A stretch of DNA of 61,282 nucleotides, from the IMG/VR virus record IMGVR_UViG_3300037193_000488, positions 1-61,282 of that record, one strand, 5' to 3'. A program made the position numbers and the translations under genes. The DNA is from a virus. The stretch's first letter is position 1; each line of letters opens with the position of its first letter. Under the pieces are notes generated by a model that was given only the letters and a program-made list of their open reading frames with translations, did no database searches and was not told the origin of the DNA. This document shows, in pieces, positions 18,661 through 35,150 of the stretch.

Positions 18661-18670
18661 TACGCGCGTA
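18661..18670. promoter_or_regulatory. Palindromic candidate operator TACGCGCGTA
   Basis: TACGCGCGTA (TACGCGCGTAGG on the plus strand) 41 bases upstream of the zinc-finger/primase operon start. One of four copies of this motif in the genome. The position between a hairpin at 18680-18717 and the first gene suggests control of the replication operon. Confidence 0.5.
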
Positions 18671-26099: not shown

Positions 26100-28040
26100 C
26101 TACACGATGTCGACACCGAACTGCGCGGAGGCAAACTCTAGCCCTCGCCGCTTGTCGAGCATCACAAAGTTGTTTTCTGCCTTTGCGAAGTTGTGCTCTG
26201 CAATCATCTCCTCGATGGTGTCTTCGGCCCGGACGTACCAGACATGGACCTGGTGCTTGACGTTGGATGCGCGGTGGGCCCGATCCTCCACCTGTAGTTG
26301 GTCGTCTGGGATCCAGGTCTCATCCATGATGACAACATCGTCGGCCGCATCCAACGTGATCGATACACCACCGGCCATGGTGTTGATGAAGAAGACCCGG
26401 ACGTTGTCCGACTTCTGGAACTCCTGGACCATCTGGGCCCGCTTCGCTTCGCTGACCTCGCCGGTAAGCACGAAGCACTGAATGCCACGCGCCACAAGCT
26501 CGCTGGCCCAGAGATTGATGTTCTTGGTGAACTGGGAGGCGATGACCACCTTGTGAACCTCATCGCTCAGATCACCACGCTGGGCCGATCCTTGCTTGGC
26601 CTCGATGCCGCGCTCCTCCAGGAACTCCAACAGCCAATCGAACTTCCCGGACGGCAGGCGCGGCGTGAACTCGCCCTTGACCAACTCGCCGTAGCACGAG
26701 GCGAACTGCTTGAGCCGGGTGAACTCTGCCAGAACGCCAAGGGCCGTGAGGGTTCCACCCTTGAGCTCAACCTCGGCATCCTTCATGATCGCCTGGTATG
26801 CCTTGGCCTGCTTGGGATCCATCGGGACCTTGACCTGGTGGTAGATCTTCTCCGGAGGCATCCAGTCCGGGTTGATCTTCCTGATCTCGGCCTTGGTCCT
26901 CCGGAGGCAGAGCGCATCGAGTGAACGCATCAGCGACTCCTCGCGCTCCGGGATCAGGTCACCGATCTCTCGTGCATACCCGTTGTCGGTGACGACGAAG
27001 TACCGCTCAACCCAGTTCCATTTGCTGGTGTAGACCTTCGGCCGGAGCCAGTTGAGCGTTCCCCACAGGTTGTGCTTCTTGCCCTTGTAGGGTGTGCCGG
27101 TCAGCGCGTATCGCAACCCATCCTCAACGGTCCGGAGCGCGACGAAGCCGCGCCCGACTTGTGAAGCCTTCTTGCCACGGGTGTTGATCAGCCACTTGTG
27201 CGTCTCGTCGGCAACGAGTGCATCCCACTCCCGCTTGAAGATCTGCGGCAGGCGCGGCTCGATGGAGCCCTTGTGCTTGTCCGCATACTCACACCAGTCA
27301 TACGTCCCGTCGCAACCGGCTTCGCTGCCGGCACGGGTACAGGTGCGGGTTGACTTGATACGGACCAACTCCGCGTTCCCCAACAGGAAGTGGATTCTGC
27401 CATCATCGGGCAGCGCGTCGTACTCCTCCAGACGTTGCAACGTCTTCGCCGGAGTAAGCCCAGAGATCACCGTCACGGTGTAGCCCTGCTTGAAACCCTC
27501 CAGCCATTTGTGGACTTCCTCTCGCCAGACTGCGGTCACGGAGGTCTTCGGCGCGAGCACCAACACCCGTCCGCCATCCGGAAGGTTCTCCACCAGCGCT
27601 GCAAGAGTCTGAATGGTCTTACCCATTCCCGGTTCGTCTGCAATCAGGGCCTGTCTCGCGTACGCGAGGAAGCGCGCGCCCGGGACCTGGTACGGTTTAC
27701 CCCTCAAGCCCCAAAGCATTTTCGGGGCCAGTTGTCGTACGCGCGTAGGAGGCACAACACTTTTCTCGTCATAGGAGACCCCTGCTGCCCGGAGCATGTT
27801 CGTAGCCGCGCGCTCGCGCGAGACCTCATTTGCAGCCCAAGACCAAAGCTCAGGGCCAATCTCCAATTGGTCGCCGAATTCCTCCCGCATCATCCGGCAG
27901 ATTTCGAGATCGCATGCATACGTCCACGACTTCGAGGTCTTTGACCAGCGCGCTCCGGGTAGCGACTTGCACCGGTCCTTGTACTCAAACGGCGACCGTA
28001 GATGGATGCGGTTGCCGATCTTCTCTGCAACGACCTTCAC
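26100..28040 (-). CDS. SNF2-family DNA translocase/helicase
   Basis: A 646-aa protein starting at GTG after AAGGAGGG. The N-terminus (KSLPGARWSKTSKSWTYACD) resembles the HARP-like module of SMARCAL1-type annealing helicases. The motor has DEPGMGKT (135-142), LVLAPKTSVTAVW, VADETHKW (DExH-like box), YALTGTP, and the second RecA lobe with VIASQFTKNI, NTMAGGVSITLDAADDV and QVEDRAHR. A Cys insert (RTCTRAGSEAGCDGTYDWC) may bind zinc. In phages such proteins remodel forks or strip proteins from DNA. Confidence 0.85.
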   Translation of the reverse strand: MKVVAEKIGNRIHLRSPFEYKDRCKSLPGARWSKTSKSWTYACDLEICRMMREEFGDQLEIGPELWSWAANEVSRERAATNMLRAAGVSYDEKSVVPPTRVRQLAPKMLWGLRGKPYQVPGARFLAYARQALIADEPGMGKTIQTLAALVENLPDGGRVLVLAPKTSVTAVWREEVHKWLEGFKQGYTVTVISGLTPAKTLQRLEEYDALPDDGRIHFLLGNAELVRIKSTRTCTRAGSEAGCDGTYDWCEYADKHKGSIEPRLPQIFKREWDALVADETHKWLINTRGKKASQVGRGFVALRTVEDGLRYALTGTPYKGKKHNLWGTLNWLRPKVYTSKWNWVERYFVVTDNGYAREIGDLIPEREESLMRSLDALCLRRTKAEIRKINPDWMPPEKIYHQVKVPMDPKQAKAYQAIMKDAEVELKGGTLTALGVLAEFTRLKQFASCYGELVKGEFTPRLPSGKFDWLLEFLEERGIEAKQGSAQRGDLSDEVHKVVIASQFTKNINLWASELVARGIQCFVLTGEVSEAKRAQMVQEFQKSDNVRVFFINTMAGGVSITLDAADDVVIMDETWIPDDQLQVEDRAHRASNVKHQVHVWYVRAEDTIEEMIAEHNFAKAENNFVMLDKRRGLEFASAQFGVDIV

Positions 28041-31842: not shown

Positions 31843-32454
31843 TCAGAACGCTTCGGCGGCCGGAGCGGGCTTCGTGACCCGGGCCTTACGAGCCGGAGCC
31901 TTCTTCGCCGTGGCCGTAGTGGTCTTCCTGGCGGTCGCCGTCGCCTTCTTGGCCGGAGCCTTGGCCGGGGCCTTCTTGGCCGCCGGAGCCGCCTTCTTGG
32001 CGACCTCGATTTGCAGGCCGTCCATGATCTCCCGAGCCTCCTGGTGGGCGAGCTTCATGTGTTCGGAGCGCTTCTCCACGATGGCCTCCGCCAACGGGAC
32101 GTACCCGGACCGGGACTTGTTGGTCTGGGACTTCTGGAAGTGAGGGAACATCGCGAGGACAGCCTGGACATGCTTCGGGCTGATCGGCTCCTCCAAGTTG
32201 GTACGCCGGTTGATCTCCTTGGCGAGGATGACATGCTGTTCGCTGGGGTCCTTCTCGTCCAAGTAGGTCCAGTCGCGCTCCTCGAAGGTCTGGGCCTTCT
32301 TCGGCTTGTCGTTCATCGCCGGTCCGGCCGGAACCATCTCGGAGACCTCCTTGGCCTGCTTCCGGACGTGGGCCGGAGCGGTGGTCTTCTTCGCCGTCCG
32401 CTTCGCCGGGGTCTTCGACGCGGCCTTGCGGGTACGGGTAGCGGTGTTCGTCAT
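31843..32454 (-). CDS. Histone-H1-like tailed protein B
   Basis: A 203-aa protein with KTPAKRTAKKTTAPAHVRKQ at the start, a folded centre and a long Lys/Ala/Pro tail (AAKKAPAKAPAKKATATARK...) that ends PAAEAF. The centre ISPKHVQAVLAMFPHFQKSQTN lines up with VDPEQAMFVMTHYKDFQVSDVN of the protein at 22105, so these look like duplicates. A DNA-binding or nucleoid-remodelling role is inferred. Confidence 0.65.
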   Translation of the reverse strand: MTNTATRTRKAASKTPAKRTAKKTTAPAHVRKQAKEVSEMVPAGPAMNDKPKKAQTFEERDWTYLDEKDPSEQHVILAKEINRRTNLEEPISPKHVQAVLAMFPHFQKSQTNKSRSGYVPLAEAIVEKRSEHMKLAHQEAREIMDGLQIEVAKKAAPAAKKAPAKAPAKKATATARKTTTATAKKAPARKARVTKPAPAAEAF

Positions 32455-32508
32455 GATCTTGCCTTCCTGTTTTGACGGTCATCGTCAGGACGGGTCCTTT
32501 ACCCGCCG

Positions 32509-32531
32509 ACTAGGAGCCAATGGCCCCTAGT
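32509..32531. terminator. Hairpin ACTAGG-A-GCC-AAT-GGC-C-CCTAGT
   Basis: A nine-pair stem with one central mismatch pair, between the stop at 32545 and the H1-like gene start. Placement suggests a terminator or processing site. Confidence 0.5.
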
Positions 32532-32544
32532 TTCGACCTAGGTG

Positions 32545-32874
32545 TCAGTGGTTGTAGGCCTGTTCCGGGTCGTACGCCGGAACGTCCTCCAGGAACAGGA
32601 ACGGGTTGAGCCGGATCCATTCGGCCACGACCTTACCCCGCTCGATGACGTTGTTCCAGTCGTTCTTCGTCCAGCCCTCGTTGTCGGGGTGTTCATGAAG
32701 ACTCTCGATGTGGAATTGGCAGTAGGGGATGGGATCGCCCTCTACGTCGTACAGAGTGCATGTTGCTTCGAGGTCGCAACCCTGTTCGGAGCATTCCAAC
32801 TCCGTCTGGTGTTTGAGAGCGAGATAGCGGAAGTCGCCGGACGCGTACTCGGTAATGAACTGGATGGCGCGCAT
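32545..32874 (-). CDS. Hypothetical protein with Cys/His set, 109 aa
   Basis: Starts MRAIQFITEY after GAAGGAGAA. CSEQGCDLEATC and PYCQFHIESLHEH give a C-x4-C-x5-C...C-x2-H set that could bind zinc. The rest is helical with NDWNNVIERGKVVAEWI. Unknown function. Confidence 0.7.
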   Translation of the reverse strand: MRAIQFITEYASGDFRYLALKHQTELECSEQGCDLEATCTLYDVEGDPIPYCQFHIESLHEHPDNEGWTKNDWNNVIERGKVVAEWIRLNPFLFLEDVPAYDPEQAYNH

Positions 32875-32891
32875 GATGTTCTCCTTCTCCT

Positions 32892-33146
32892 TCAGCGGAT
32901 CGTGTGGGCCGGGACGTTGTGGTTGTTGATCTCTCCGCAAGGGCAAGTCCATGACACGGTAGCCGCGCCGAACTTCGCTCCCTTGATGCCATCCTTGGAG
33001 TTCCACTCGGGCATGTTCTCCGGACGGCCGGGGTCAACCAGCTTCGCGATCCGGACCGATTGAACGTCGATGACGTCTCCGAAGGTCCGGCTAACCCGAA
33101 CCCATTTCGAGCAACCGGAACACTTGGTGTTGAAGTTGAAGGACAT
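32892..33146 (-). CDS. Zinc-ribbon protein, 84 aa
   Basis: Starts MSFNFNTKCSG. Two CxxC pairs (CSGCSKW at the start, CPCGEINNH at the end) form a zinc ribbon around a beta core. It is the first gene after the long gene-free region and so probably the first product of the early transcript. Small zinc-ribbon proteins expressed first often bind host transcription factors; this is inference. Confidence 0.7.
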   Translation of the reverse strand: MSFNFNTKCSGCSKWVRVSRTFGDVIDVQSVRIAKLVDPGRPENMPEWNSKDGIKGAKFGAATVSWTCPCGEINNHNVPAHTIR

Positions 33147-33206
33147 GTTGTTTCTCCATCTATCCATGGGAGACAGCGCTCCCTAGCGCGAACCATTCGC
33201 GCCTCG

Positions 33207-33268
33207 TGCATCCGCCCGACTTGAACGGGCCAGGAGCCAGCGGGTTACCGCCCGCTCTCCGGGATGCT
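33207..33268 (-). ncRNA. tRNA-like fold lacking a D-arm
   Basis: On the minus strand, 62 bases fold into three stems. Acceptor-like AGCATCC (33268-33262) pairs with GGATGCA (33213-33207) in six of seven positions. A canonical T-arm, GCCCG-TTCAAGT-CGGGC, occupies 33230-33214. Between them is a long hairpin (GGAG-AGCGGG...CCCGCT..CTCC, 33260-33233). There is no D-arm and no CCA. It may be a decayed tRNA or a tRNA mimic. Confidence 0.4.
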
Positions 33269-33269
33269 T

Positions 33270-33298
33270 GATCGAACCAACTCCGCTTCGGTTCGATC
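33270..33298. repeat. Perfect 9-bp inverted repeat
   Basis: GATCGAACC (33270-33278) and GGTTCGATC (33290-33298) around an 11-base loop, directly next to the tRNA-like fold. The arms contain the T-loop-like GTTCGAT. Confidence 0.7.
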
Positions 33299-33728
33299 GG
33301 TACACCTTGTTGAGTTATCAGGATGGCTTCGGTACTCGTCCGCTCGCCAGAGAGGCAGAATTGCGGCCGGAGCGTTAAGGACCGATCGGTCCCGCTCCTT
33401 CGAGAGTCCGGCTGATCGCCGTCCATCGATGGTTTCCGTTCCTTCGGAAGGGGAGTTGTCTTTGAACCCGACTTCGGTTCCTCATGCTCAGCGTGTCGCC
33501 CGGTCGCTCGGTTGCCCATGGCCCGATTGCGCGTCCGGCGAAGCGACCTCTCAAGTCATGCAGGCTTCGCCCTTCCGGTTTCCCGGAGTTCCCGGCGACT
33601 TCGGATGGTCTAGCCGCTACCCGGTGGCTACCTGAGTCCATGGACTCCGTATCTCCGCTCCGGACGGAACCGCGATCGTCGCGAGGTAGGACGGTCAGCG
33701 CCGTCCCGGTGTTGCGAGGTACATCCTT

Positions 33729-33744
33729 CCCTACGCGCGTAGGG
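33729..33744. promoter_or_regulatory. 16-bp perfect palindrome, candidate operator
   Basis: CCCTACGCGCGTAGGG is the most symmetrical of four copies of TACGCGCGTAGG. It lies beside the AT-richer patch of the control region, a likely place for the early promoter. Binding of a regulator is inferred from symmetry and repetition. Confidence 0.55.
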
Positions 33745-33924
33745 AGCGCAAAACCAATACCCACGAGTAACTGATTTCGTAATCAAACCGTTACCCAAGA
33801 CTACGGAGAGTTATGCACCTATGTGTGACTCACCCGAGCATGGTAACTGCAAGTAACGGAGCAGCGTCCGCTATTCGTGCAATTTGGTCGTGCAACGTCC
33901 GCTATGCGAACGGCCCGAAATGCA

Positions 33925-34356
33925 TCACTCCATGGCGTCGTACCGCTCCCGAGCCTCCTTCCGGACCGCGTCAACGTCCGGCGCATGCGGGCTGCGGATC
34001 AGAGCAATGGCCGTCGCGAGACCAAGCGCCAAGCCCTTCTCCGCAGCCTTGTCTTCACCAGAAAGCCCACCCTCCATGAGGTTTACCATGCACTGGTCCA
34101 ATCCCTCCCAGAGGTGACCGCTGATCGACCGGCCCGCGTTCGGATGCATAGATCTCAACAGGGCAAGGGAAATCGCCTCACCGTCATGCCTCGTGAGGTA
34201 GTGCTGGAGTAGCTTGCCGTCACGCTCGATGTCGAGCCGGACCTCTGCCCAGCGCGGGATGCCTCCGGCGACATGATCCGCATCCGTCAGCGCAACACAC
34301 TCGATGTTGTCGACGGTTCCGAGTTGGATGAGCAGTTGCAAATCTGTTACGGTCAT
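33925..34356 (-). CDS. Hypothetical protein, 143 aa
   Basis: A 143-aa protein, starting MTVTDLQLLI with a 4-base overlap on the previous gene. N-terminal beta (VDNIECVALTDADHVAG) and a helical C-terminus (AAEKGLALGLATAIALIRSP). No family recognised. It ends where the long control region begins. Confidence 0.7.
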   Translation of the reverse strand: MTVTDLQLLIQLGTVDNIECVALTDADHVAGGIPRWAEVRLDIERDGKLLQHYLTRHDGEAISLALLRSMHPNAGRSISGHLWEGLDQCMVNLMEGGLSGEDKAAEKGLALGLATAIALIRSPHAPDVDAVRKEARERYDAME

Positions 34357-34604
34357 GAGATCTCCTTGAAGTGGTCTCGAAGTAGCGGGCGAACGCTCTG
34401 TTGCGTAACACCCATGAATGCAGCAAGAACGCGCTCATACGCATCTCGTCGGCCGATGAGCTCACGACGGCGCGGGTTGCGCAGCGAATGCTTGTCGTTG
34501 AGCTCATCATCGGCCTTGTGCCATTGCAAAAGCACATCATACAAGGCATTTGCGGCCGACTGCGGGTCAAGCGTCAGCCGGATGCGATCGATGACGTTGG
34601 GCAT
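34353..34604 (-). CDS. Small helical protein, 83 aa
   Basis: An 83-aa helical protein (MPNVIDRIRL..., ANALYDVLLQWHKADDEL) with a basic end. First gene after the 13-bp terminator, after AGGAGGACAG. GVTQQSVRPLLRDHFKEI could be a helix-turn-helix-like end, but I cannot confirm. A regulator would fit its position. Confidence 0.65.
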   Translation of the reverse strand: MPNVIDRIRLTLDPQSAANALYDVLLQWHKADDELNDKHSLRNPRRRELIGRRDAYERVLAAFMGVTQQSVRPLLRDHFKEIS

Positions 34605-34636
34605 CCTGTCCTCCTGTCTGTGCCACAGCGGGCGCG

Positions 34637-34700
34637 GTCCGGAGACTATACCGGACGCATTGCGGCACCCAGCGTCAGGAAGGAAACCGCTGGGTGCCGC
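34637..34700. terminator. Perfect 13-bp hairpin ending the lysis operon, plus a second hairpin
   Basis: GCGGCACCCAGCG (34662-34674) pairs perfectly with CGCTGGGTGCCGC (34688-34700) around a 13-base loop, 22 bases after the holin-candidate stop. A second stem, GTCCGG/CCGGAC (34637-34642 with 34651-34656), follows; on the minus strand its loop contains TATAGT, which may be a -10 element for the next gene. The strongest terminator-like structure in the genome. Confidence 0.7.
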
Positions 34701-34721
34701 ATGTACTACAAGGGTACGTTG

Positions 34722-35150
34722 CTACGCGACGGGTGGCCGCGTATCTTCTTGCGGGACAGGCTTGACGTACACAGGCTCACCTTCCTGGAGGTCGGTCTGC
34801 GACGCTGCGGCCGGTCCGGCGACGGTGTCACCCGGATGCGCGACGTACCCGAGATGACGTCCACCACTGGTCGTTGACTCCGTCTTGGTCTGTGCGGTGT
34901 AGGCCTGCACGATGCCACCAGGGATGGCGGTTCCGGCGCTCGCACCAGTATTGGGGTTGATGGCCCCAAAGCCGAGAGCCTTCACGACGGTGATGGCGGT
35001 GGTGATCAGGATCGGTGCCCAGAACCTCCACTCGTCCAGGGAGTCGGTGCTGAAACCCTCCGCACTGAACACGCCGACCAGGACGGCGATGAAGGTTGCA
35101 ACCACACGTTCGGCCGCATCCTTCCAGAACGCTTTCGACCAGATCCTCAT
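34722..35150 (-). CDS. Holin candidate (membrane protein after the amidase)
   Basis: A 142-aa protein starting MRIWSKAFWK. WKDAAERVVATFIAVLVGVF is the opening of a common phage holin family, followed by WRFWAPILITTAITVVKALG as a second membrane segment and a hydrophilic tail. Two membrane segments and position right after the amidase (4-base overlap) support holin. Holins make the membrane lesions that release the amidase. Confidence 0.75.
   Translation of the reverse strand: MRIWSKAFWKDAAERVVATFIAVLVGVFSAEGFSTDSLDEWRFWAPILITTAITVVKALGFGAINPNTGASAGTAIPGGIVQAYTAQTKTESTTSGGRHLGYVAHPGDTVAGPAAASQTDLQEGEPVYVKPVPQEDTRPPVA

Follow-up and report, generated by a model that had tools for sequence, protein, structure and literature searches.

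A probable large structured noncoding RNA between the lysis and early genes of an actinophage-like virus

In the excerpted text of PMC12286853, GOLLD and ROOL are presented as large structured phage RNAs whose role is unknown, GOLLD being found in phages and prophages. Here, we analysed a virus record of 61,282 bases (hereafter the window, meaning this whole stretch of DNA), which carries a gap of 778 bases at positions 33147-33924. From comparison of sequences, we conclude that this gap marks the late/early operon boundary of an actinophage-like virus and that a large structured noncoding RNA of at least about 520 nt, from an apparently undescribed and lineage-restricted family, is probably encoded on its minus strand. 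The likeness to GOLLD (RF02032) and to ROOL (RF03087, about 570 positions) is that of a large structured phage RNA. Unlike GOLLD, for which tRNA genes are frequent neighbours, the gap RNA is not located beside tRNA genes and ends in a tRNA-elbow-like fold, and in contrast to ROOL it comes without a tRNA island.

The gap sits between lysis genes and early genes, all of them on the minus strand. Read along this strand, the order runs from the terminase (61.2 kb) over portal, major head protein and tape measure to endolysin and holin (35 kb) and the gap, which is followed by genes for a helicase, an exonuclease, an AAA protein, a primase/helicase, DnaE and ThyX. The nearest named phages are distant, with 52% for the terminase in Gordonia phages, 45% for the tape measure in Microbacterium phages and 53% for DnaE in a Mycobacterium phage, and by inference the host is probably an actinobacterium. 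The original prediction had described a gene-free region that is the only long gap and lies between the late terminator and the first early gene. The gap is indeed the longest in the window, based on a greedy ORF cover, and it is non-coding, as third-position GC of the coding type is absent from every ORF inside it. The placement between late (lysis) and early genes also holds, whereas the late terminator is less well supported: a scan of 32000-35000 recognised no intrinsic terminator for the minus strand.

Relatives of the gene adjoining the gap (33925-34353) occur in two viral contigs, L001 and L002. A third relative came from R1, a covariance model of the 5' part. Of the 48 records searched with this model, 46 had been taken from a terminase scan returning 80 loci, and one real match emerged (G007:24808-24921; E-value in Table 1). 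G007 (L138) carries the same neighbour gene beside its gap, and the gaps at the corresponding place measure 709 b in L001, 803 b in L002 and 785 b in L138. The models of the 3' part (R2 or R3) were applied to the record of every one of the 80 terminase loci, most of which are short fragments, and 2 of the 80 matched at E < 1e-5. Of the 18 records with a length of 45 kb or more, these two, G001 and G007, are also the only ones whose terminase is about 80% identical to that of the window. G002, found via the neighbour gene, matches the 3' model too; four weaker matches to this model (E 0.14-0.90) were treated as chance. Within the records scanned, occurrences of the RNA are limited to the window and the three close relatives whose sequence spans this locus. 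The loop pattern CACACATA..TGCATAAC occurs at 44 loci, two of which are the known relatives, and 13 of the other 42, scored with R1, gave short chance-level matches only. Covariance-model runs on the named phages Ajin and Zany returned no copy of the RNA, and a search of named phages with the gap DNA and the proteins of two neighbouring genes yielded nothing useful. In the distant Microbacterium phage Ajin, a gap of ~0.5 kb precedes the primase gene (L051:18982-19477). The interval 34353-34604 (minus) codes for a protein of 83 aa with 83-85% identity in L001 and L002, compared with 66-68% for its neighbour; this protein has no PHROG or Pfam match.

A structured noncoding RNA was one of the options originally proposed, with covariation in relatives as the way to check it, and this option is strongly supported. 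In an unfitted MAFFT alignment of the 3' domain (window, L002, L138), pairing holds in 97.7% of 87 cells, and 13 of 29 pairs are compensatory; sliding the partners by 1-3 columns leaves at most one compensatory pair, and the observed values were reached in none of 500 shuffles. The covariance model built from the same three sequences recovers the fourth, L001, with E 1.9e-6. After addition of L001 in an alignment fitted to the model, the pairs of the 3' domain that change on both sides (Table 1) compare with at most one in the slid controls. A hand table of 12 helices across the region comprises 33 compensatory, 5 one-sided and 27 constant pairs out of 65; as these helices were picked by eye, they serve as description, and the tests are the unfitted alignment, the recovery of the fourth genome and the four-genome count of the 3' domain. 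P14 illustrates the pattern, with a loop that is kept and a stem that differs in every genome, and P16 behaves likewise (loop CGGUAA in three). A confirmed common structure of the four genomes was not found at about 33300-33463. Judged from the four sequences on which the RNA is based, compensatory base changes exceed the controls, as expected of a structured noncoding RNA, and demonstrate selection on the secondary structure in four phages.

Concerning the strand, the cells of the hand table are 229 Watson-Crick, 6 G-U and 0 A-C, and the minus strand is favoured because A-C cells are absent (a chance of about 1 in 64 for equivalent strands). It is also on the minus strand that the loops read as GNRA and T-loop-like. 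When the consensus fold was compared with column-shuffled alignments, the overall z was -5.7 for minus and -6.1 for plus. In the last 160 columns the values are -5.9 for minus and -4.7 for plus, whereas plus scores better in the first two stretches (-4.1 and -4.5 vs -1.8 and -1.4 for minus). For the 3' domain, the case for the minus strand is good; the z-scores of the consensus fold alone leave the choice unsettled, and the 5' third could lie on either strand.

Table 1. Elements mapped in and around the gap RNA (window coordinates; "." means no strand assigned).
Feature	Position	Strand	Evidence
Main body of structured RNA, palindrome side to end of tRNA-like domain, about 520 nt	33204..33725 (ends approximate)	-	Helices P6-P17 present in at least 3 of 4 genomes
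3' domain: hairpin P14 and tRNA-elbow-like fold P15-P17	33204..33305	-	17/29 pairs compensatory, 108/108 cells pair; R2 recovers L001
P14 hairpin: 9-bp stem, conserved 11-nt loop GAAGCGGAGUU or GCAGCGGAGUU	33270..33298	-	5/9 pairs change on both sides, 4 genomes
tRNA-elbow-like fold: P15 closing stem 33262-33267/33208-33213, P16 arm (loop CGGUAA), P17 T-arm (loop UUCAAGU)	33208..33267	-	
P10 hairpin	33464..33480	-	4/5 pairs compensatory, 4 genomes
P9a (GNRA tetraloop GAAA or GCAA) and P9b (4-bp stem, 12-nt loop)	33546..33587	-	Stems nearly invariant
P6 hairpin (loop CGCUGA or CGCUGU), P7 stem, P8 hairpin	33629..33706	-	Compensatory pairs: P6 5/6, P8 5/5, P7 1/5
5' dyad domain: stem P1 around hairpin P2, conserved loop CACACAUA	33790..33857	-	R1 match in G007, E 9.4e-14
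18-bp palindrome TCCCTACGCGCGTAGGGA, core invariant	33728..33745	.	Core 4x in window, corresponding places in relatives
Two ATAGCGGACG direct repeats, 31 bp apart	33865..33905	-	Twice in L002 as ATATCGGACG, once in L138, absent from L001

The elements differ in how their pairs vary (Table 1). The tetraloops of P9a read GAAA, GCAA, GCAA and GAAA in the four genomes, and P8 corresponds to the 14-bp palindrome GAGTCCATGGACTC. In the 5' dyad domain, a pseudoknot of GUUA..UGCA with UGCAUAAC is possible; P1 has one compensatory pair in three genomes and energy favours the plus strand here, and whether this domain is an RNA or a DNA element is not settled.

T-loops follow the consensus UUCRANN and dock with the GG of a second loop in the tRNA elbow. 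At the 3' end of the gap RNA, P15-P17 form a three-way fold, in which a 6-bp closing stem is stacked on a 5-bp stem next to the arm with the CGGUAA loop, and the loops of P16 and P17 presumably resemble the D- and T-loops of tRNA. A T-arm with a UUCRANN loop on an acceptor-like stem is present in the window (UUCAAGU), L002 (UUCAAGU) and L138 (UUCGAGU), while L001 has an 8-nt loop instead of the canonical T-loop and lacks the GGUA loop, its stems being kept where testable. The closing stem is followed by ACGA, ACGA, ACGG and ACGC in the four genomes. We rejected a tRNA or tmRNA, as neither ARAGORN nor Rfam models made a call at the 3' end, and CCA and an anticodon arm are lacking; the 3' end is tRNA-like, not a tRNA. 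With the tRNA-like domains of tmRNA and of lncRNA tails cut by RNase P, it shares the acceptor-like stem on a T-arm and a second arm with a GG loop, but differs from them in these same points. Directly behind the tRNA-like end of G007, there is a GC-rich hairpin ATTGGGGC..GCCCCAAT (L138:3485-3505). The hairpin at the same spot in the window (33187-33203) differs, so that a hairpin 3' of this end may be conserved without its sequence.

About 0.7 kb downstream, before the gene 31843-32454, lies a hammerhead-type sequence (32477-32538, minus). Type II hammerheads are recognised by a core in the order GAAA, NUH, CUGANGA with three stems. The order GAAA, stem, GUC or AUC, stem, CUGACGA with three stems was found in the window, L001 (6567-6629) and L002 (6720-6777), so that three of the four genomes have it at an equivalent position; in L138 the hammerhead is absent within the 5.5 kb read. 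The Rfam model RF02276 reports the L001 copy with 30.7 bits (E 1.9e-4), under its gathering score of 37, and leaves the copies in the window and in G002 unreported.

Taken together, the early transcript would start in the gap region, with the RNA as its first half-kilobase, and a control site including the TACGCGCGTA palindrome would govern RNA production, the product acting as RNA and not as message. We tentatively suggest that the tRNA-elbow-like 3' domain may be a handle for a host tRNA enzyme, with RNase P as first candidate, that frees the RNA from the early mRNA; a cut by RNase P in front of the tRNA-like end would be the simplest idea. Freed this way, the RNA would stand in kind beside GOLLD and ROOL. 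Somewhat more doubtful still is a new class of large phage RNA, which would combine a tRNA-elbow mimic, an RNase P cut before the elbow and a second cut downstream by the hammerhead. If this were true, three products would arise from one early transcript, namely the structured RNA in free form, a short message and the replication operon.

The same arrangement could be read as a long cis-acting leader, exerting attenuator, antitermination or riboswitch-like control over the early operon with no free RNA. We consider this unlikely, though it is a serious alternative: the RNA immediately precedes the early genes in the same orientation and includes a possible operator, but its size and its several independent domains exceed those of usual leaders, and the first early genes vary among the relatives (L138 is without two small genes) while the RNA is kept.

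In contrast to the RNA stems, CCCTACGCGCGTAGGG is invariant across the four genomes. Its core TACGCGCGTA occurs at 1805-1814, 18661-18670, 27738-27747 and 33732-33741, which makes four copies vs 0.035 expected from a third-order Markov model, and no shuffle reached this count. The copy at 18661 is located ~40 bp upstream of the start of the first ORF in the primase block. G001 has the core at the RNA, ~5.9 kb downstream (helicase gene) and before the primase block; G007 has it at the places of G001 and additionally ~1.5 kb upstream of the terminase, a position at which it is also found in G004, G005 and G011. Because the core occurs four times and at matching places in relatives, the palindrome, which is separate from the RNA, is probably a DNA operator or promoter site, as would be expected for a site bound by a phage regulator. 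The copy at 27738-27747 lies within the helicase ORF, and its sequence is unchanged in G001 and G007 even at third codon positions that are free to vary, a hint that the DNA itself has a role inside a gene. Of the early promoter cluster originally proposed, an early control region is likely, given the conserved sites near other gene blocks, but no promoter was identified: a sigma-70 promoter scan recognised none (0 found vs 0.7 expected). In genome contigs the 18-bp palindrome has two matches, neither of them with the RNA. The excerpted text of PMC3540006 gives the same 10 bp TACGCGCGTA as the centre of the protelomerase targets N15 telRL and PY54 pal, and this telomere-site centre also appears in an oligonucleotide in the excerpt of PMC12624138. 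A protelomerase target was nevertheless rejected for the phage palindrome, which shares the central 10 bp but has several copies per genome and different arms; a protelomerase domain (PF16684; ResT/TelK catalytic domain) was found in 0 of 5 records. That the whole region consists of DNA-level elements only, with protein-binding palindromes or dyads and RNA folds as by-product, is highly improbable. Such a reading would suit the 18-bp palindrome, which is invariant and recurs elsewhere, but the other helices show conserved loops and compensatory changes in their stems, whereas protein sites would show the reverse.

Perfect palindromes in the gap are located at 33379-33392, 33634-33647 and 33728-33745, and three of at least 14 bp compare with 0.07 expected (reached in 0 of 1000 shuffles). 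The predicted number of at least three was correct, whereas the lengths are 14, 14 and 18 bp and not 14-16 bp. Perfect hairpins, said to be several of 6-9 bp, do exist as 7-bp ones, but without clear excess (2 vs 0.5 expected, fraction 0.12). Both the direct repeats CGTCCGCTAT (33865-33874 and 33896-33905, 31 bp start to start) and the AT-richer patch (GC 0.49 at 33727-33857 vs 0.606 for the window) were confirmed; as a genome-wide motif, ATAKCGGACG was rejected, with 8 matches at one mismatch allowed vs 6.8 expected. By folding energy, the region described as highly structured is ordinary for this phage (-324 vs a mean of -322), as 18 of 38 other 778-b windows fold as well. Single-sequence folding z-scores are moderate with -2.7, -1.7 and -4.6 on minus for the window, L001 and L002, and -3.9, -1.0 and -2.8 on plus. 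Folding energy alone would not have made the case for a structured RNA. The AT-richer patch, the repeats 31 bp apart and the long non-coding stretch would be compatible with the replication origin that had been suggested; yet GC skew makes no turn near 33 kb, the repeats are absent in L001 and the strong signal is RNA-type covariation, so that an origin finds no support and is very improbable.

Hardly more plausible is a diverged GOLLD or ROOL RNA, although the excerpt of PMC12286853 places these in a similar size range of large structured phage RNAs. With E values up to 10 allowed, the RF02032 covariance model found nothing in the window, and it is not among the Rfam matches in L001, L002 and L138; no Rfam family matched at the gap, the gaps of the relatives gave neither GOLLD nor ROOL, and tRNA genes number 0 in the window and 0 in five loci of relatives. 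Under the same E limit, the RF03087 model had no match in the window and none in 14 control genomes either, a comparison without positive control. GOLLD and ROOL are further characterised by a homo-oligomeric nanocage. An overlooked protein gene is practically negligible: the gap holds chance ORFs of 119-129 aa, but these have no third-position GC bias, and the conserved frame that would have spoken against the original prediction was looked for in the relatives and not found, where the frames are closed and short matches fall in various frames on either strand.

The preferred reading is thus a large structured noncoding RNA that apparently represents an undescribed family, as the literature, at partial coverage, returned no description of it. 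A partner of the Ro/Y-RNA type was considered as well and rejected, as a Pfam scan of 30 proteins showed no TROVE domain. Few large structured phage RNAs have been described, with roles that are open, and to these the gap RNA adds covariation in four genomes. Its tRNA-elbow-like end points to a possible host partner, with a candidate ribozyme and a probable multi-copy control site close by. In kind, the gap RNA is like GOLLD and ROOL, and it is filed under neither because there is no model match and no tRNA island.
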